In this document: positions 23,692 to 45,448 of the stretch, piece by piece
Layout: each line of letters begins with the position of its first letter
How positions within the stretch are numbered: the first letter of the stretch is position 1
NCBI RefSeq assembly: GCF_000189535.1
Contig: NC_015145.1
Coordinates: forward strand, 1,674,001 to 1,738,000
Reading direction: 5' to 3'
DNA from: Pseudarthrobacter phenanthrenivorans Sphe3
GTDB taxonomy: Bacteria > Actinomycetota > Actinomycetes > Actinomycetales > Micrococcaceae
DNA length: 64,000 nt
Made by a program: the position numbers and the translations under genes
Notes under the pieces: model-generated
What the model saw: the letters and a program-made list of their open reading frames with translations, nothing else
Told to the model about the DNA's origin: nothing
The model's database searches: none

Positions 23692-24042
23692 TTACTGCCA
23701 GAGCGTGGCGATGGCCACGTTCAGCAGGGCGAGCCCGCCCACACCGTGCGCCAGCCCAGCGCTGATGGGCTCACCCTTCTTGTACTTCCGGCGGCCGATG
23801 AAGGCCAGGACACCGACGGCGAGGGCAACTGCGAACTTGATGCCGAGCTTGAAGTAGTTGGCATCCATGTCCAGGGCCGGGATGAGTCCCATCAGGGCGA
23901 CGCCGGTGAGGAGCTGGAGCATGGCGCCGTCGAACTGGCGCGGGTGGACTGTTGGCTTTTTCATCTGGCCGATCCAGATGCCAACGATCATGGCGGCGCC
24001 GACGATGTGCAGGAAAACCACGATGTTATAGACGATGTTCAT
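23692..24042 (-). CDS. Four-helix integral membrane protein of unknown function
   Basis: A 116-residue protein with about four hydrophobic segments. The first carries VFLHIVGAAMIVGIWIGQM, and further segments lie near residues 42-56, 65-83 and 95-114. A conserved His (FLHIVGAA) in the first helix recalls small cytochrome-b- or CopD-like membrane proteins, but nothing else supports haem or copper binding. I cannot assign a function. The ATG directly follows a candidate -10 element and has no ribosome site. Confidence 0.8.
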   Translation of the reverse strand: MNIVYNIVVFLHIVGAAMIVGIWIGQMKKPTVHPRQFDGAMLQLLTGVALMGLIPALDMDANYFKLGIKFAVALAVGVLAFIGRRKYKKGEPISAGLAHGVGGLALLNVAIATLWQ

Positions 24043-24054: not shown

Positions 24055-24087
24055 GCCAGAGATTCTACGGCCTGTAGTAGTTAAACG

Positions 24088-37649: not shown

Positions 37650-38639
37650 TCAGCCAAGCAGGCCCGGCACCACCAGCAGGGCTGTGGGCAGCGCCAGCAG
37701 CAGCACGCAACCGGCCAGGACAAGGGTGCGGACGGGGGATGGGAGTTCGGGCTGGGGCGAGAGCAGCCGGCTTACCCTTGAGGCGGTGGTGCGGGCAGAG
37801 TCAGACCCGGCGGCGCCGGCGGCGGGGTCCAGCGCGGACAGCGCCAGGGCGGAAGTAGCCGGCCGGAGTTCTGCCCCGGTAGTCCCTGCGGAGCCGCTGG
37901 CCACGATGGCGATCGCCTTGATGAGCGTGGCTTTGCTTTCGGTCTTGAGCGCAACATCGTCTGCGAGCATTTCGATCAGGGAGTTCACGGCCTCCTGCGC
38001 CAGCCGCGTGGTGGGAAGCCACGGCAGCGCCTGCCGCCACGCGGCGAAGGCCCACAGCAGCAGATGGTGGCGCTGGCTCAGGTGCGCGTTCTCGTGGCTC
38101 AGGACCGCGCGGAGCTCATCCGGCTCAAGCGCCGCCATCAGGCCGTCGGAGAGCACGGTTACCGAACGCGCCCCTCCCGGAAGGCAGTAGGCCACGGGGG
38201 AGTCGTGGCTGATGACCAGGGTCCCGGCTCCCTCCGCCGACGGCGACGCCAGCAGCGCCAGCAGTTCACGGTGCCGCCGCCGCTGCCGCTCAATCTTGTA
38301 GTAGGTCAGCAGCAGCGTGAACACCAGGTGGGCGGTGAGCAGCGCGGCCGCAGACAGGGCAAAGATGTGCCAGAATCCCAGGGCTGTGGTGGGCGCGTTG
38401 AACAGGACCATCCCGGCCAACGCCCGGACCCCTGCAATCAGGTTGTCACCGATCGGTTCCAGCCCATAGACCAGCATGGCGCCGATCATCGAGAGCCCGC
38501 CTGCCAGTGCGATGGCCTGCCACAGCAGCATGGCCGTAAACGGCGCGCGGGCGGGCCACTGCGCCCGCGAGAGCAGGATAGGCACTGGCCACGCCAGGAC
38601 TATCGCAAGGACCGCCAGCAGGTATGAGGCCCAGAACAT
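37650..38639 (-). CDS. M56-family membrane metallopeptidase (BlaR1/MecR1-like)
   Basis: A 329-residue membrane protease. Hydrophobic segments lie near residues 1-23, 35-57, 72-88 and 92-113, and a last one near 303-325. A cytoplasmic zinc protease domain carries H182-E183-x2-H186 (LSHENAHLS) and a downstream Glu in the LIEMLADDVAL segment. It lacks the extracellular penicillin-binding sensor of true BlaR1, so the signal is not a beta-lactam by this evidence. It starts six bases after the BlaI-like gene and forms an operon with it. In such pairs the protease removes the repressor when activated. Confidence 0.9.
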   Translation of the reverse strand: MFWASYLLAVLAIVLAWPVPILLSRAQWPARAPFTAMLLWQAIALAGGLSMIGAMLVYGLEPIGDNLIAGVRALAGMVLFNAPTTALGFWHIFALSAAALLTAHLVFTLLLTYYKIERQRRRHRELLALLASPSAEGAGTLVISHDSPVAYCLPGGARSVTVLSDGLMAALEPDELRAVLSHENAHLSQRHHLLLWAFAAWRQALPWLPTTRLAQEAVNSLIEMLADDVALKTESKATLIKAIAIVASGSAGTTGAELRPATSALALSALDPAAGAAGSDSARTTASRVSRLLSPQPELPSPVRTLVLAGCVLLLALPTALLVVPGLLG

Positions 38640-38645
38640 GGTCCG

Positions 38646-39032
38646 CTAGAGGTGGCCAAGCAGTTTGCGCAGCGTCTCGGCTTCACCTTCGGAAACGGAG
38701 CCAATGAAGCGTGCCAGCACTGCTTCGCGGTCAGGGGCTGACCCCAGTACTTCATGCATCAGTTCGGCCGTGTGGTCCTCGCGGCTGGATACAGCCTGGT
38801 AGCGGTGCGGGCGGGTGCCGCGTTCGCGCTCAACCAGGCCCTTCTTCTCCAGCCGGGACAGCACGGTGAGCACGGTGGTGACGGCAAGTTCCTTGCCTTC
38901 ATGGCCGGCCGCGCCACCCTGGCCTGCCGAGGTCTGCGCCAGTCGGTCCCGGAGGGTATTGGCGGTGGCTGCTTCCTGGCCCGCCCAGAGCAGGTCCATG
39001 ACTGCCCGTTCCAGTTCACCAAGACTAGCCAT
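38646..39032 (-). CDS. blaI: BlaI/MecI/CopY-family repressor
   Basis: A 128-residue winged-helix repressor. The opening LGELERAVMDLLWAG and the recognition region TTVLTVLSRLEKKGLVERERGTRPHRYQAV are typical of the family. The C-terminal dimerisation helices hold the usual cleavage region for the partner protease. The ATG at 39032 is used because similarity starts there and aaagga lies upstream. Three identical dyads lie in the gap to cydA, so the likely regulon is this operon plus cydABDC. Confidence 0.92.
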   Translation of the reverse strand: MASLGELERAVMDLLWAGQEAATANTLRDRLAQTSAGQGGAAGHEGKELAVTTVLTVLSRLEKKGLVERERGTRPHRYQAVSSREDHTAELMHEVLGSAPDREAVLARFIGSVSEGEAETLRKLLGHL

Positions 39033-39133
39033 TGCACTTTTCCTTTGTTCCCCGCGCCGTGCCGCAAGGCTGCGGCGACTGCACGCGAATTCTTTCAACT
39101 ACAGAAACAAATTTACCTCCAATCGGCGCTACT

Positions 39134-39150
39134 TTCTACATTGGGTAGAA
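39134..39150. promoter_or_regulatory. Operator 1 (BlaI-like gene side)
   Basis: TTCTAC, five bases, GTAGAA: a perfect 6-bp dyad. It lies about 100 bases upstream of the repressor ATG. Its repressor-proximal half overlaps the -35 position of a candidate promoter with TAAATT at 39110-39115 on the minus strand. Autorepression is the natural reading. Confidence 0.75.
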
Positions 39151-39197
39151 CACATAGGCGCGCGCCCTTTTCCGGTCGGTTCATGGGGGACGTCACG

Positions 39198-39259
39198 TTT
39201 ACACCGCTTCCAGACTTGTTCTACACTCGGTAGAAGTTGGAGTTCTACAAAACGTAGAA
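39198..39259 (+). promoter_or_regulatory. cydA promoter with operators 2 and 3
   Basis: TTTACA at 39198-39203 (-35, five of six) and TACACT at 39222-39227 (-10) are 18 bases apart. Operator 2 (39219-39235) covers the -10. Operator 3 (39243-39259) lies just past the predicted start, centred 24 bp downstream of operator 2. Both are exact TTCTAC-n5-GTAGAA dyads, as is operator 1. A bound repressor would block the promoter. The leader to the TTG start of cydA would be about 55 bases. Confidence 0.75.
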
Positions 39260-39289
39260 AATCCGCTTCCGCTGACACGAGGGACCGCC

Positions 39290-40903
39290 TTGGACGCTTT
39301 AGACGCGCTGGAAATCGCACGCTGGCAATTCGGTATCACCACCGTCTACCACTTCATGATGGTCCCGCTGACCATCGGACTGGGACTGGTGGTGGCGGTG
39401 ATGCAGACGGCCTGGCACCGTACCGGCAAAACCGAATACCTCCGCATGACCAAGTTCTGGGGCAAGCTCTTCCTCATCAACTTCATCATGGGCGTGGCCA
39501 CCGGCATCGTGCAGGAATTCCAGTTCGGCATGGCCTGGAGCGAGTACAGCCGGTTCGTCGGAGACGTCTTCGGCGCACCGCTGGCCCTGGAAGCGCTGCT
39601 GGCCTTTTTCGTGGAGTCCACGTTCCTGGGGCTGTGGATCTTTGGCTGGAAGCAGCTCAAGCCTGCCATCCACCTCGCCTGCCTCTGGATCGCCGTCGTT
39701 GGCTCCGTGTTCTCCGCCTACTTCATCATCGTGGCCAACAGCTGGATGCAGCACCCCGTGGGCGTGGAGATGATCGACGGCCGCCCCGTGATGACCGACG
39801 CCTGGGCCGTCTTCACCAACAACACCGCACTCGTAGCGGTGCCCCACACCCTGTTCGGCGCCCTGGCGGTGGCCGGCGGCTTCCTGCTCGGCATCGCCTG
39901 GTACCACCTGTGGCGGAGGCGGCGCGACGGCGTCGATACCGTCGGTGCCGATGGCAGGGTGATTCCCGGGGAAGCAGCAGACATTCCCGGCCGCGACCGC
40001 GACGACCACAAGGTCTGGCTGCGGTCCCTGCGCATCGGAGCCGTAGTTGCCATGATCTCCTTCGCCGGCACCGCCCTCACGGGCGACCTCCAGGGCAAGC
40101 TGATGTTTGAGCAGCAGCCCATGAAAATGGCCGCGGCAGAAGCGGCCTGCCACGACGGTACCGGCTTCTCCGTCCTGAGCATTGGCAACCTCGGTTCGCA
40201 AAACTGCGACGACATCGTGGCACTGATCGAAGTCCCCGGCATCCTCTCCTACCTGGCCAAGGGCGACTTCACCACCGAAGTCCAGGGCGTCAACAGCCTC
40301 CTGCCCGAATACCAGGAGAAGTACGGCACCCACCTGCCGGACAACCCGATCTACGGCGAGCGCGCCGGCCAGGAAATCGACTACCTGCCGGTCATGGAGG
40401 TCACCTACTGGGGCTTCCGGATGATGATCGGCTTCGGCGGCCTTGCCGCACTGGCAGCGCTGGTGGCCCTGTGGATCACCAGGAAGGGCACCGTCCCCGA
40501 ATCCCCGTGGCTCATGCGGCTGGCAGTCTTCGGCATCCTCGCCCCGTTCGGAGCCAACGCCGCCGGCTGGATCTTCACCGAGATGGGACGCCAGCCGTTC
40601 GTGGTGGCACCCAACCCCGACCCGAACGGCATCGACCAGGTCTTTATGTTCACCGCCGCCGCCGTCTCACCGGGCGTTTCCGCCGGGGAGCTCCTCGCCT
40701 CGCTGGTCACGCTGACCGCTGTCTACGCAGTCCTCCTGGTTGTCGAGGTCAAGCTGCTGGTCAAGTACATCCGCGGCGGAGTGGTGTCCGCCATGCCGGA
40801 ACTGGTCCACGCGCCTGTGGACGAAAACGAGGATGCCACCCCTGGCCCCGGTGGACAGGGCGGCACAAAAGCTGCCGACGACGTCCTGGCCTTCGCCTAC
40901 TAA
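39290..40903 (+). CDS. cydA: Cytochrome bd oxidase subunit I
   Basis: Quinol oxidase subunit carrying haems b558, b595 and d, used at low oxygen or under stress that blocks cytochrome aa3. The 537-residue product has about nine membrane segments. The N-terminal EIARWQFGITTVYHFMMVPLT holds the conserved haem His. The conserved GRQPF turn follows TEM in the C-terminal half, and the quinol-binding loop lies around LLPEYQEKYG. It starts with TTG, with gaggga six bases upstream. It is first in cydA-cydB-cydDC and lies behind two BlaI-type operators. Confidence 0.97.
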   Translation: MDALDALEIARWQFGITTVYHFMMVPLTIGLGLVVAVMQTAWHRTGKTEYLRMTKFWGKLFLINFIMGVATGIVQEFQFGMAWSEYSRFVGDVFGAPLALEALLAFFVESTFLGLWIFGWKQLKPAIHLACLWIAVVGSVFSAYFIIVANSWMQHPVGVEMIDGRPVMTDAWAVFTNNTALVAVPHTLFGALAVAGGFLLGIAWYHLWRRRRDGVDTVGADGRVIPGEAADIPGRDRDDHKVWLRSLRIGAVVAMISFAGTALTGDLQGKLMFEQQPMKMAAAEAACHDGTGFSVLSIGNLGSQNCDDIVALIEVPGILSYLAKGDFTTEVQGVNSLLPEYQEKYGTHLPDNPIYGERAGQEIDYLPVMEVTYWGFRMMIGFGGLAALAALVALWITRKGTVPESPWLMRLAVFGILAPFGANAAGWIFTEMGRQPFVVAPNPDPNGIDQVFMFTAAAVSPGVSAGELLASLVTLTAVYAVLLVVEVKLLVKYIRGGVVSAMPELVHAPVDENEDATPGPGGQGGTKAADDVLAFAY

Positions 40904-40932: not shown

Positions 40933-41982
40933 ATGGAACTGCTGCCAACCATCTGGTTCATCGCCATCGCCGTGCTGTGGACCGGGTACCTCTTCCTGGA
41001 GGGCTTCGACCTGGGCGTCGGAATGCTCATGAGGATATTCGCCCGCAACAACACCGAACGCAGGGTGCTGCTTAACACCATCGGCCCGGTCTGGGACGGC
41101 AACGAGGTGTGGCTCCTGACCGCCGGCGGCGCCACCTTTGCCGCCTTTCCCCTTTGGTACGCCTCCCTGTTTTCGGCCCTTTACCTCCCACTGCTGGTGG
41201 TGCTGGTGGCACTGATCTTCCGTGCCGTTGCCTTTGAATACCGCGGCAAGGTGGACACCGACCAGTGGCGTGCGCGCTGGGACTGGGCCATTGCCCTGGG
41301 GTCCTTCTTCGCCGCGTTCGGGGTGGGCGCGGCACTGGCGCTCACCACCACCGGACTTCCCCTGAACGCCAACGGCGACCGTGAGGGTGGCCCGCTGGCG
41401 TGGTTCAGCGGCTACGCGGTGCTTGGCGGACTGGCGGTGGTGGGCTTCTCCCTGGTGCATGCCCTCGCGTTCCTGGCGCTGAAAACCGACGGCGAGGTCC
41501 GGTACCGCGCGCGCCGCTGGTTCGTCAGGCTGCTGCCGGTCCTGCTGCTGCCCATCGCCGCATGGGCCCTCAGCGTTCAGTTCCTGGATGGTACGCCGTG
41601 GACCTGGGTTCTTGTCCTCCTGGCCGTTGCCGCTGCGGCCGCCGCCTGGATACTGGGCCGCAAGGGCGCTGAGGGGCGCGCGTTCCTGGCTCTGGGTGCG
41701 TTTCTGCTGCTCGGCACGGCGTCCATCTTCGGTGCGGTCTTCCCCGTGGTGCTGCCCTCCACCCTTGATCCCGCCTTTGACCTGACCATTTCCAATGCTT
41801 CATCCTCGGACTACACTCTGGGCCTGATGAGTGTTGTGGCCGCGTTCGGCCTGCCCCTGGTGATCGCCTACCAGGCCTGGACCTATTGGGTCTTCCGGGC
41901 GCGGGTCAGCTCAGCACACATCCCGGAGGCGCACAGCTTCCTGCCGGCCATTGCCGCCAAGGCCCTCACCAACAAAGGCTGA
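40933..41982 (+). CDS. cydB: Cytochrome bd oxidase subunit II
   Basis: A 349-residue multispanning partner of CydA. The N-terminus has the family segment LWTGYLFLEGFDLGVGML, then NTIGPVWDGNEVWLL with conserved Trp and Glu, and further helices to the end. The ATG at 40933 follows aggaaaagaag and is where similarity begins; the frame stays open upstream inside cydA. It lies 29 bases after cydA and one base before cydDC. Confidence 0.96.
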   Translation: MELLPTIWFIAIAVLWTGYLFLEGFDLGVGMLMRIFARNNTERRVLLNTIGPVWDGNEVWLLTAGGATFAAFPLWYASLFSALYLPLLVVLVALIFRAVAFEYRGKVDTDQWRARWDWAIALGSFFAAFGVGAALALTTTGLPLNANGDREGGPLAWFSGYAVLGGLAVVGFSLVHALAFLALKTDGEVRYRARRWFVRLLPVLLLPIAAWALSVQFLDGTPWTWVLVLLAVAAAAAAWILGRKGAEGRAFLALGAFLLLGTASIFGAVFPVVLPSTLDPAFDLTISNASSSDYTLGLMSVVAAFGLPLVIAYQAWTYWVFRARVSSAHIPEAHSFLPAIAAKALTNKG

Positions 41983-41983
41983 C

Positions 41984-44900
41984 ATGCGTCCAACCCTCCC
42001 GCCAGGCCCGGCAACCCGCTCCGCCCTCTACCTTCTTGGCCTGCTGGCAGCCCTGAAGGCACTGTCACTGGTCCTGATGGCCCAGGCGGTGGCCTCGGTC
42101 CTTGCGGGCCTGGTAGCGGGAGACCAGCGCTGGGACGGGCAGCTTGCCTGGGGGCTGGCCGGCGTGGTCCTGCGCTCCCTGACCGTCTGGGGGCAGGCGG
42201 TAGCAGCCCGCCGTGCGGCACTCGGCATCAAGGAGGAGTTGCGCGCCGGACTTCTCGAAAGGGCGCTTCGCAACGGCGCCCGGGGGACCGGGCCCGCGGA
42301 CGGCGGGCTGGCGGTCCTGGCAACCCGCGGCCTGGACGCGCTGGACAACTACTACACGCAGTTCCTGCCCGCGCTGGTGAACTGTGCCGCGATTCCGCTG
42401 CTGCTGGGCGCGAGGATCCTCTTCGCGGACTGGGTCAGCGCGGTGGTGATTGTCCTGACGGTACCGCTCGTGCCGCTGTTCATGGTGCTGATCGGCCGCT
42501 ACACGGAAGACAATGTCCGGGAAGCGCAGGCATCCCTGGCGCGGCTCTCCGCCCACATGCTGGAACTGGCCAAAGGCCTGCCGGTCCTGGTGGGACTGGG
42601 ACGCGCCACTGCCCAGCGCAAGGCCCTGGAGGAAATCTCGGAAGAGTACCGGGTCCGCACCATGGGGACCCTGCGGACCGCCTTCCTGTCGGCGCTGGCG
42701 CTGGAGCTGATCGCCACCATTTCCGTGGCCGTGGTGGCAGTTTTCATCGGCGTCCGGCTGGTGCACGGCGATATGCCGCTCGAAGCCGGCCTGCTGGCCC
42801 TGATCCTGGCACCGGACTGCTACCTTCCGCTGCGTGAGCTGGGTACCGCCCACCATGCCAGCGACGACGGCAGGGTGGCCCTGGCCCAAACCACCGCGGT
42901 CACGGAGGCGCCGGAGCCGAGTCCGCTTCCGGCAGCCAAGGCCGGCCGGCCCGGGGCGCCGGTCACTGTCAACGGCCTGACGGTGAGCTACAGCGGACGG
43001 TCCGGCCCCGCCGTCGGACCGATCAGCTTCACCGCGCCCCAGAGCAGGATCACCGCCTTGGACGGGCCCAGCGGCGCAGGCAAGAGCACCATCCTTGGCG
43101 TACTGGCCGGGACGGTTGGGCACGGTGCCGGCACTTCCGTCACCGGAACCCTCGAGGGCCTTGACCGCAGCACCCTGGCCTGGGTGCCGCAGCATCCTGT
43201 CATGCTTGCGGAAACTGTGCTGGAGGAGGTGGCGCTCTACGTTTCCGGTGAGCTGCACGGCCTCCGACGCGCCGGAGTGGAGGAAACTGCCCGGAAATGC
43301 CTGGCTCGGGCCGCCGCAGCCCACCTGGAGCACCAGCACCCTGCGGAGCTCAGCCCGGGTGAGCTGCGGCGGGTGGCCCTTGCCCGGGGGCTGGCCAGGA
43401 TTGAGGCCGGGGCCACTGTCCTGCTGCTTGATGAGCCCACTGCGCACCTGGATGACGGCTCGGCCCGGGCGGTTGAAGACGCCATCAGCAGACTCCGCGG
43501 CCGCGTCACCGTCATCCTGGTGGCGCACAACCAGCGCACCCGCAGCCTCGCCGACCATCTGGTGCCGGTGGGCACAGCCGGGCCCACCGCCCCCGGCGCC
43601 GGGGCCGCGCTGGACGCCGCCCGGGTCCCGCAGGACGCCGCCCGGCCACCGCAGGCCGCCGCCGCGAACGCGAAACTGGCGGCCACACCAGCAACCGCAC
43701 CGGCAGCCCCGGCAGCTGCCGCCGGCCCCAGCGCCAGCCGCACCGTCCCGGGCCTGCTTGCGGCGCTCCTGGCCCCGGTCCGCGGCCGGTTTGCCGCGGC
43801 AGCTGCTGTAGGCACCCTCGCAGCGGTCTTCGCCGTTGCCCTGTCCGGGCTGTCCGGCTGGCTGATCATCAGGGCCAGCGAGCAGCCTCCCATCCTGTAC
43901 CTGCTCACTGCCATCGTGGGGGTGCGGTTCTTCGGGATCGGACGGGCCGTGCTCCGCTACTGGGAACGGCTCCTCCTGCACGATGCCGTGTTCGCGGCAC
44001 TCACCCTGCTCCGCGGCCGGCTCTGGGAGACGTTGAGCCGCAGGGCACTCGCCCTTCGCCGCCTGCTCCAGGGCGGCAACGTCCTGGGAACGGTGATCGA
44101 CGACGTCGATACCGTCCGCGACCTCCTGCCGCGCGTTGTGCTGCCGCCCGTCACCGCCGTTGCGGTGTCCGTCCTGGCGCTGGCCACCACCTGGCTGCTG
44201 GTGCCGGAGGCGTTCCCCGCCGTGCTGGCCGCCGCCGCGGCAAGCCTGGTGCTGGCCCCGGCGGTGGCGCTCTGGGCGGACAGGAAATCGGCCACCGCCG
44301 AGCAGCTCCTGAAGTCCGGGGTCCTGCGTCGCATTTCCGCTGCCCTTGACGCCCGCGCCGAACTGCAGGCCAACGGTGTTGCGGCACCGGTGCTGGCCGG
44401 GCTGCGCGCCCAGGACCGCAGCGCCACCCGGGCGTCCCAGCGGTCCGCCTGGGCGGACGGCCTGGGGCACGCGTTCACCACCGCCTCCTGCTGCGCGGCA
44501 GCCCTGGCAGCGGCCTGGCTGGCAGCTCCCGCCGTCCTTGCCGGCCGGCTCGAGCCCGCAACGGCCGCCGTCGTCGTGCTGCTGCTTCTCGCGCTGGTGG
44601 AACCCTACGCGGCCATGACGACGGCGGTCCGCCAGTTCCCGGCGCTGCAGACCGTCCTGCGGCGCGTCGCCGCTTCCGGCGCCCTGGACGACGATCCTCT
44701 TACGTCCGGAGCGATCTCCGCCGACGGCCTGCAGCAGGTGCCGCCCCGCCATGGCGGGACTCCCGGCGTCGAGCTCGCCGCCCTTTCGGCTGCCTGGCCG
44801 GGCGGTGCGCCGGTGTTCGCCGGACTCAATGCCGTGGCGGAACCGGGCCGCTGGCTGGCAGTGACCGGGCCTTCCGGCTCCGGCAAGTCCACCCTGCTTT

Positions 44901-45448
44901 CTGTGCTGCTTGGCTTCCTCCCGCCCGCGGCGGGGCAGGCCCGGGTGACCGGCCGGGCCGCCTGGTGCCCCCAGGAGGCGCACCTCTTTGACTCGACCAT
45001 CCGCGGCAACCTGCTGCTGGGCCGGCCGGCAGGAGGGCAGGCCGCAGCAGACGGAAGGCAGGGGGACGACGACGAACTTCGCGCGGTGCTCGCCGCCGTC
45101 GGACTGTCCGGCCTGGTGGAGCGGCTGCCCGCAGGGCTGGACACGAGGATTGGTCCCGGCGGGGCCTTCCTGAGCGGCGGGGAACGGCAGCGGCTGGCCG
45201 TGGCCCGCACCCTGATGACGGGAGCCGAGGTCATCCTGCTGGATGAGCCGACGGCGCACCTCGATGCTGAAGCGGCGCGGGCAATGCTCGCGGACCTTCG
45301 CATGGGGCTGCGCACGCGCACCGTAGTGCTGGTGACCCACAACCCGGCGGACATCCACGCGGAGGACGCACGGCTGGTGCTAACGGCCCGTCCCGGCGAG
45401 GAGCCGGGCAGCGCGGCGCCAGCGTATGCGGCGGCAGGGGAGCGTTAG
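41984..45448 (+). CDS. cydDC: Fused CydD-CydC thiol-exporter ABC protein
   Basis: A 1154-residue single-chain ABC transporter needed for assembly of cytochrome bd; in E. coli separate CydD and CydC export cysteine and glutathione. The first half has a membrane domain (about 10-290) and an ATPase with Walker A at 361-369 (GPSGAGKST) and LLLDEPTAHLDD. An Ala/Pro-rich linker of about 70 residues follows. The second half has a membrane domain (about 590-880) and an ATPase with Walker A at 962-970, signature LSGGERQRLAVA and LLDEPTAHLDAE. The first signature motif is LSPGELRR, one change from LSGGE. The ATG lies one base after the cydB stop. Confidence 0.94.
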   Translation: MRPTLPPGPATRSALYLLGLLAALKALSLVLMAQAVASVLAGLVAGDQRWDGQLAWGLAGVVLRSLTVWGQAVAARRAALGIKEELRAGLLERALRNGARGTGPADGGLAVLATRGLDALDNYYTQFLPALVNCAAIPLLLGARILFADWVSAVVIVLTVPLVPLFMVLIGRYTEDNVREAQASLARLSAHMLELAKGLPVLVGLGRATAQRKALEEISEEYRVRTMGTLRTAFLSALALELIATISVAVVAVFIGVRLVHGDMPLEAGLLALILAPDCYLPLRELGTAHHASDDGRVALAQTTAVTEAPEPSPLPAAKAGRPGAPVTVNGLTVSYSGRSGPAVGPISFTAPQSRITALDGPSGAGKSTILGVLAGTVGHGAGTSVTGTLEGLDRSTLAWVPQHPVMLAETVLEEVALYVSGELHGLRRAGVEETARKCLARAAAAHLEHQHPAELSPGELRRVALARGLARIEAGATVLLLDEPTAHLDDGSARAVEDAISRLRGRVTVILVAHNQRTRSLADHLVPVGTAGPTAPGAGAALDAARVPQDAARPPQAAAANAKLAATPATAPAAPAAAAGPSASRTVPGLLAALLAPVRGRFAAAAAVGTLAAVFAVALSGLSGWLIIRASEQPPILYLLTAIVGVRFFGIGRAVLRYWERLLLHDAVFAALTLLRGRLWETLSRRALALRRLLQGGNVLGTVIDDVDTVRDLLPRVVLPPVTAVAVSVLALATTWLLVPEAFPAVLAAAAASLVLAPAVALWADRKSATAEQLLKSGVLRRISAALDARAELQANGVAAPVLAGLRAQDRSATRASQRSAWADGLGHAFTTASCCAAALAAAWLAAPAVLAGRLEPATAAVVVLLLLALVEPYAAMTTAVRQFPALQTVLRRVAASGALDDDPLTSGAISADGLQQVPPRHGGTPGVELAALSAAWPGGAPVFAGLNAVAEPGRWLAVTGPSGSGKSTLLSVLLGFLPPAAGQARVTGRAAWCPQEAHLFDSTIRGNLLLGRPAGGQAAADGRQGDDDELRAVLAAVGLSGLVERLPAGLDTRIGPGGAFLSGGERQRLAVARTLMTGAEVILLDEPTAHLDAEAARAMLADLRMGLRTRTVVLVTHNPADIHAEDARLVLTARPGEEPGSAAPAYAAAGER

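Follow-up and report, generated by a model that had tools for sequence, protein, structure and literature searches.

The DNA analysed here is a stretch of 64,000 nucleotides from Pseudarthrobacter phenanthrenivorans Sphe3 (contig NC_015145.1, positions 1,674,001 to 1,738,000; hereafter "the window"), in which the genes for a BlaI-like repressor and a membrane protease are divergent from the genes for cytochrome bd and the CydDC exporter. It is very probable that the repressor and the protease form a switch that represses cytochrome bd and a wider respiration-haem regulon until activation of the protease leads to cleavage of BlaI. A sequence-only reading of the locus had proposed that a BlaI/M56 pair controls cytochrome bd and CydDC. 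Comparative analysis supports this proposal, and the putative control is wider, reaching further genes of haem synthesis and respiration. The system appears to be a BlaI/M56 switch of a known kind, in which the protease lacks a sensor domain and cytochrome bd is the centre of the regulon. At the level of sequence, the sites, their conservation, their loss together with BlaI, the identity of the targets and the active site of the protease are established.

BlaI dimers would bind to the dyad TTCTAC-n5-GTAGAA. Two tandem dyads, 24 base pairs (bp) apart, would cover the -10 region and the transcription start of cydA and block transcription, and a third dyad would allow BlaI to repress the operon that encodes it. 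Upon activation the metalloprotease, whose gene immediately follows blaI, would cut BlaI, most likely before Phe109, and cydABDC and the other targets would be derepressed. The same BlaI would act on hemQ, hemA/hemE, haem O synthase, oxidase assembly, ATP synthase and flavohaemoglobin; cytochrome c maturation and a ctaA-type operon are probable further targets. Binding, the direction of control and cleavage are deduced from family knowledge and from the anatomy of the locus, which contains the following features:

37650..38639, minus strand: gene for a membrane gluzincin protease (M56/M48 clan), 329 amino acids, without penicillin-binding domain
38646..39032, minus strand: blaI-like repressor gene, 128 amino acids from ATG, PF03965 76.2 bits, cysteine-free
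39134..39150, no strand: operator dyad TTCTACATTGGGTAGAA, exact copy on the blaI side, putative autoregulation site
39198..39227, plus strand: predicted cydA promoter TTTACA-18-TACACT, consensus match only
39219..39235, no strand: operator dyad TTCTACACTCGGTAGAA, exact copy over the cydA -10
39243..39259, no strand: operator dyad TTCTACAAAACGTAGAA, exact copy, 24 bp after the preceding dyad
39290..40903, plus strand: cydA, cytochrome bd subunit I, PF01654 506 bits, TTG start
40933..41982, plus strand: cydB, cytochrome bd subunit II, TIGR00203 283 bits (cut-off 117.3)
41984..45448, plus strand: gene for a fused CydDC exporter, TIGR02857 and TIGR02868 above cut-off in one frame

Operator dyads and their conservation

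The divergent gap between blaI (minus strand) and cydA (plus strand) has a length of 257 bp. As the sequence-only reading had stated, it contains three exact copies of the dyad, which start at 39134, 39219 and 39243; the number expected by chance in the window is 0 (100 dinucleotide shuffles). If up to three mismatches are allowed, the window has 11 dyads versus a shuffle mean of 4.36, and one of the 100 shuffles reaches 11. The signal therefore resides in the exact copies. In the order given, the dyad centres are 110, 195 and 219 bp away from the blaI ATG and 148, 63 and 39 bp from the cydA start. The proposed cydA promoter is the sole sigma-70-like match between 38900 and 39400 (shuffle mean 0.0). 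Its -10 falls within the 39219 dyad, and the 39243 dyad comes after the likely transcription start, with 30 bp between its end and the cydA start codon; this agrees with the earlier placement of two dyads on the -10 and start region. The 39134 dyad may serve the autoregulation of blaI.

Both the divergent gene pair and the dyads turned out to be conserved in related genomes, a check that had been suggested along with the initial proposal. A set of 120 genomes of the family was searched, 104 of which have a BlaI with an identity of at least about 50%, and the BlaI locus was fetched for each of them. cydA is located divergently beside blaI in 93 of the 104 genomes, and an exact dyad has been kept in the gap by 92 of these 93 (at least two dyads in 77), with varying spacer sequences; the remaining genome has a dyad with one mismatch. 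The protease gene is found beside blaI in 103 of the 104 genomes, the exception being a locus cut by a contig end. Where cydA is not adjacent (11 genomes), there is nevertheless a dyad before blaI, exact in seven and with one mismatch in four. In a set of named loci, comprising the best 80 only, cydA is adjacent in 76, of which 67 have three dyads and nine have two, and the other four have kept one dyad before blaI. The identity of the BlaI encoded by named loci reaches 100%, e.g., in Arthrobacter sp. AK04.

The n5 spacer is variable, except for TACnnT in the first dyad of the tandem pair, which is present in 47 of 69 pairs; when the 88 other sites were compared (176 readings), 28 readings had a T at the corresponding spacer position. 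This enrichment is expected if the dyad doubles as -10. The spacing of close dyad pairs is 22-26 bp in 28 of 33 cases, with a mode of 24, and 32-38 bp in the others; one pair in genome G008 is spaced 18 bp.

Relocation and loss events connect the dyads with both genes. cydA was searched for in eight of the 11 genomes that have BlaI but no cydA beside its gene (all but G066, G089 and G107). It is present elsewhere in four of them (G035, G004, G109, and a cydA-like gene with 58% identity in G042), each time preceded by two exact dyads, and the other four yielded no cydA at E 1e-30. Of 12 BlaI-less genomes seven have a cydA, and none of these is preceded by a dyad (best match three to six mismatches). 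In genus g11, whose BlaI has only 40% identity, each of the four genomes contains one exact site, which is located before cydA. Genome-wide, there are 561 exact sites in the 104 BlaI genomes versus 46 occurrences of the reversed pattern, and one of each in the 12 BlaI-less genomes. The losses of BlaI in three genera (g3, g6 and g14) thus parallel the loss of sites. Dyads with the CTAC/GTAG halves expected for a BlaI/MecI repressor are present and co-lost with BlaI. The genomes of genus g12 (G012, G042, G066, G089 and G107) contain nine to 15 exact sites each, including the highest counts, and blaI is not beside cydA in any of the five; perhaps the regulon is enlarged in this genus.

Outside of the family, a survey of the class comprised 296 genomes, 177 of which yielded a BlaI match with an E value of 1e-8 or lower. 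In the order-level family f4 all nine fetched loci (L175-L183) have a divergent cydA and exact dyads, with a cydA identity of only 42-46% in six. The single locus of f6 (L184) has cydA and no exact dyad. In f24 a cydA of 27-28% identity is nearby at four of 17 loci, together with two or three exact dyads. At the remaining 13 no exact dyad stands before blaI, and cydA-like matches (12 of 13) are farther off. The f24 loci (L185-L201) encode longer M56 proteins (about 340-420 amino acids) and longer BlaI proteins (about 150-215 amino acids). At 20 hand-picked class loci, with neighbours named by eye or by tblastn, cydAB is beside blaI-M56 in eight, the order cydDC-blaI-M56 occurs once, and 11 have other neighbours. 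Dyads of the form TACTAC-n5-GTAGTA occur in three of the 20 and the TTCTAC form in none. The locus with cydDC, L218 of family f3, has these genes on one strand, and its cydDC was named by eye.

Sites before respiration and haem genes

The genome scan that had been proposed revealed further dyads before respiration and haem genes. The genome of the window (4.54 megabases) contains nine exact sites, six of them outside of the cyd locus. Three precede the genes for a flavohaemoglobin, a PNPOx-like protein and HemQ, respectively, one is located between a histidine-phosphatase gene and yceI, one on contig C2 between a CcdA-like gene (identified by eye) and a copD-ctaG gene, and the sixth (L010) has no clear gene placement.

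In 17 chosen family genomes, including that of the window, 88 sites were annotated with our own codon-based gene caller. All 88 are intergenic by these gene calls, and for 81 of them a gene that points away from the site is found within 400 bp. At 36 sites the gene faced was identified by profile as a haem or respiration gene (cydA in one case). A further 13 face only the head of an operon taken as respiratory from gene order: either the ATP-binding cassette (ABC) gene of an operon of the ctaA type or, in clusters of the cytochrome c maturation type, a gene for a histidine phosphatase or a thioredoxin-like protein. Of the 17 genomes, 15 have a site at hemQ. HemQ, HemE, HemA, haem O synthase, SdhC, CtaC, isocitrate lyase and SucB scored above their NCBIfam cut-offs, and SURF1, CopD-CtaG, CopC, YceI and a globin-flavoprotein were identified by Pfam; for the latter, the NO-flavohaemoprotein model of NCBIfam remained below its cut-off (312 vs. 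432 bits).

The occurrence of sites near specific genes (at most one mismatch, in a stretch reaching from 260 bp upstream of the start to 30 bp downstream of it) was compared in hand-chosen sets of 18 BlaI and 12 BlaI-less genomes. Near sites were found for hemQ in nine of 18 versus 0 of 12 genomes, for an atpI-type gene of the ATP-synthase operon in 10 of 17 versus 0 of nine, and for the ABC gene of a suf-linked operon, which by gene order we take to be the ctaA operon, in 12 of 18 versus 0 of 12. The atpI count becomes 11 of 17 with the contig-end case G008, where the start is preceded by an exact site at a distance of 73 bp. As for hemQ in G012, the alignment begins only at residue 52, and the gene is in fact preceded by a site. 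Control stretches inside the genes of the BlaI genomes contained 0 (hemQ), one (atpI) and 0 (ABC gene) sites. By this comparison, the weaker sites with one mismatch are real for at least two operons.

The window itself has a fourth site of this kind, next to a putative regulon member:

23692..24042, minus strand: gene for a membrane protein of 116 amino acids beside sucB, putative regulon member
24063..24079, no strand: operator-like site with one mismatch, TTCTACGGCCTGTAGTA, before the small membrane gene

In five relatives (L101, L106, L108, L115 and L119) the gap between sucB and the small membrane gene, whose likeness was judged by eye, contains an exact dyad. The protein encoded at 23692-24042 has no NCBIfam match, and its relative in L119 has no Pfam match. 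Two families of small membrane proteins (clusters c2 and c3; L080 3167-3511, L010 4093-4596 and relatives) repeatedly flank dyads, and the members tested have no match in Pfam or NCBIfam.

The repressor, the protease and their neighbours

The repressor belongs to the BlaI/MecI family (PF03965, 76.2 bits vs. a cut-off of 22.6). Beta-lactamase control typifies the named members of this family, but not the family as a whole. The nearest solved chain is 2g9w (E 7.7e-16), presumably M. tuberculosis BlaI (Rv1846c), and profile matches to solved family members are 8.6e-48 for 2g9w, 1.3e-11 for MecI and 7e-11 for a penicillinase repressor. Phe109 is invariant in 30 of 30 BlaI sequences and aligns with MecI Phe102, which we take to be the position of cleavage by the protease. 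The genome contains a second, partial PF03965 match (profile positions 6-56, 23.6 bits, cut-off 22.6) at G000:C1:585989-586129 (L019). A blaI reading frame of 150 amino acids from an upstream TTG is disfavoured, because the relatives begin with MASLGELER or MATLGDLER, which points to the ATG and 128 amino acids.

The protease gene starts 6 bp past the end of blaI. The HENAH motif of the protein is intact, and the zinc-site residues H182, E183, H186, E223 and D227, i.e., HExxH with the downstream Glu and Asp, are invariant in 47 of 47 sequences. The protein ends with its last transmembrane (TM) helix at 329 amino acids, and no further domain follows. Therefore, the earlier statement that the site is intact and the penicillin-sensing domain absent was correct, with the qualification that Pfam M48 is above its cut-off (42.7 bits vs. 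20.3) and M56 is below. BlaR1 is the best fold match of the protease model, and the predicted layout (TM1-3, a cytosolic gluzincin domain, TM4) corresponds to that of BlaR1 minus the penicillin-binding domain; fold and TM order are thus assigned by prediction. Some close homologues carry a precomputed PF05569 assignment. An AYC-x-P strand is invariant, and its Cys152 sits in the strand before the zinc helix.

The cydA TTG at 39290 is preceded by AGGGA, and cydB and then cydDC follow. CydD and CydC are a single fused protein of about 1154 amino acids (window 41984-45448); the ATG at 41984 is its likely start, and the longest frame begins with TTG at 41951.

Alternative readings and biological meaning

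Several points weigh against a respiratory BlaI switch. Nothing in the sequence names the signal, and the binding, expression and cleavage parts of the switch are inferred. The protease scores 22.0 bits with Pfam M56, below the cut-off of 31. The reversed pattern is found 46 times in the 104 genomes, and at up to two mismatches the reversed pattern is commoner than the motif in the window's genome (167 vs. 87 per strand); therefore, loose matches mean little without conservation. No haem or respiration gene on the list used is faced by 39 of the 88 sites, which include many with small membrane proteins without profile or a PNPOx-like protein, others with copC or isocitrate lyase, unexplained places, and one ATP-synthase site beyond the 400 bp rule. 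Seven sites have no gene reading away within 400 bp, and hemQ has no near site in nine of 18 BlaI genomes. Beyond the family, the mixed neighbours and the TACTAC form indicate that the coupling to cydA is wide but, judged from these loci, not universal, and that the motif drifts. In M. tuberculosis, the control of cydAB is credited to SenX3-RegX3 in excerpts of PMC5874750, and therefore control of cyd by BlaI is a tentative assignment in that species.

The sequence-only reading had described BlaI/BlaR pairs as known mainly for the beta-lactam response. This needs a qualifier, because excerpts of PMC5473688 credit M. tuberculosis BlaI, by secondary citation, with binding at the promoters of ATP synthase and cytochrome bd. 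They also describe a mycobacterial BlaR without sensor domain and the induction of blaI-blaR and cydAB by amoxicillin-clavulanate. ATP synthase is named as a reported BlaI target in the excerpts of three papers (PMC5473688, PMC5874750, PMC12565901), and in an excerpt of PMC7058343 M. tuberculosis blaR is listed as essential for growth on haem or haemoglobin by transposon sequencing. The latter result and the amoxicillin-clavulanate induction both fit a respiration or haem input; the induction also fits wall stress. An alternative is that the pair responds to beta-lactams or cell-wall stress in the ordinary way, with induction of cyd as a part of the response to wall damage. Apart from the induction in M. 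tuberculosis, the kinship with BlaI/MecI speaks for this explanation. However, the protease has no penicillin-binding domain, the search of the genome with PF13354 (class A beta-lactamases; the only class searched) yielded no protein above the cut-off (best match partial, 35 of 214 positions, 20.3 bits vs. 22), and among the genes assigned to the 88 annotated sites there is no beta-lactamase or peptidoglycan gene, although not every flanking gene was profiled. We thus consider a wall-stress switch unlikely.

Somewhat less probable still is a ligand- or metal-sensing BlaI similar to CopY, with copper as the signal and a protease that is not the inducer. CopY/TcrY repressors are within the PF03965 superfamily, BlaI has a weak match to the CopY_TcrY profile of NCBIfam, and some sites face CopD-CtaG or CopC genes. 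Yet the match has 25.4 bits, far below the cut-off of 121.95, BlaI has no cysteine for a metal centre, and the protease is adjacent in 103 of 104 genomes with an invariant active site. It is very improbable that the dyads belong to another regulator that was co-lost with BlaI: the assignment of the motif to BlaI rests on genomic correlation and a second, partial PF03965 match exists, but a dyad precedes blaI even where cydA is elsewhere, and BlaI losses and site losses run in parallel in three genera.

The closest known counterpart of the proposed respiratory switch is BlaI/BlaR of M. tuberculosis (Rv1846c/Rv1845c). Its BlaI is the nearest solved relative, its BlaR, according to the excerpts, is likewise sensor-less, and ATP synthase is a common target, here by a conserved site. 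It differs in that blaC is also controlled there, whereas here no class A beta-lactamase is above the cut-off, the pair is divergent from cydABDC with a tandem operator, and the putative regulon extends to haem synthesis and oxidase assembly. The ctaA-type locus (rv1456c) is presumably shared by both systems. The differences to BlaI/BlaR1 and MecI/MecR1 of S. aureus are the missing penicillin-binding sensor domain, targets in respiration, and the n5 spacing of the dyad, the staphylococcal dyad being of the n4 form. No report on the Arthrobacter-type system was found in the literature searched, and part of it was to be expected from the earlier work with M. tuberculosis.

The target set of haem and respiration genes suggests that the switch probably responds to respiratory-chain status or haem supply at the membrane, although the identity of this signal is a guess. 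A tentative scenario, to which we give less than even weight, is that an old switch of the Actinomycetes for the respiratory chain and haem, with cytochrome bd at its core, was later extended to beta-lactamase control in mycobacteria, and that the protease reads a membrane signal, perhaps via Cys152 of the AYC-x-P strand as a redox, gas or haem switch.

The regulon and the operator of a protease-repressor pair have now become testable, and a simple soil bacterium is offered for finding the signal. The results suggest that mycobacterial BlaI/BlaR may be a regulator of respiration first. If true, this would bear on the question why beta-lactams, haem use and respiration are linked in mycobacteria.
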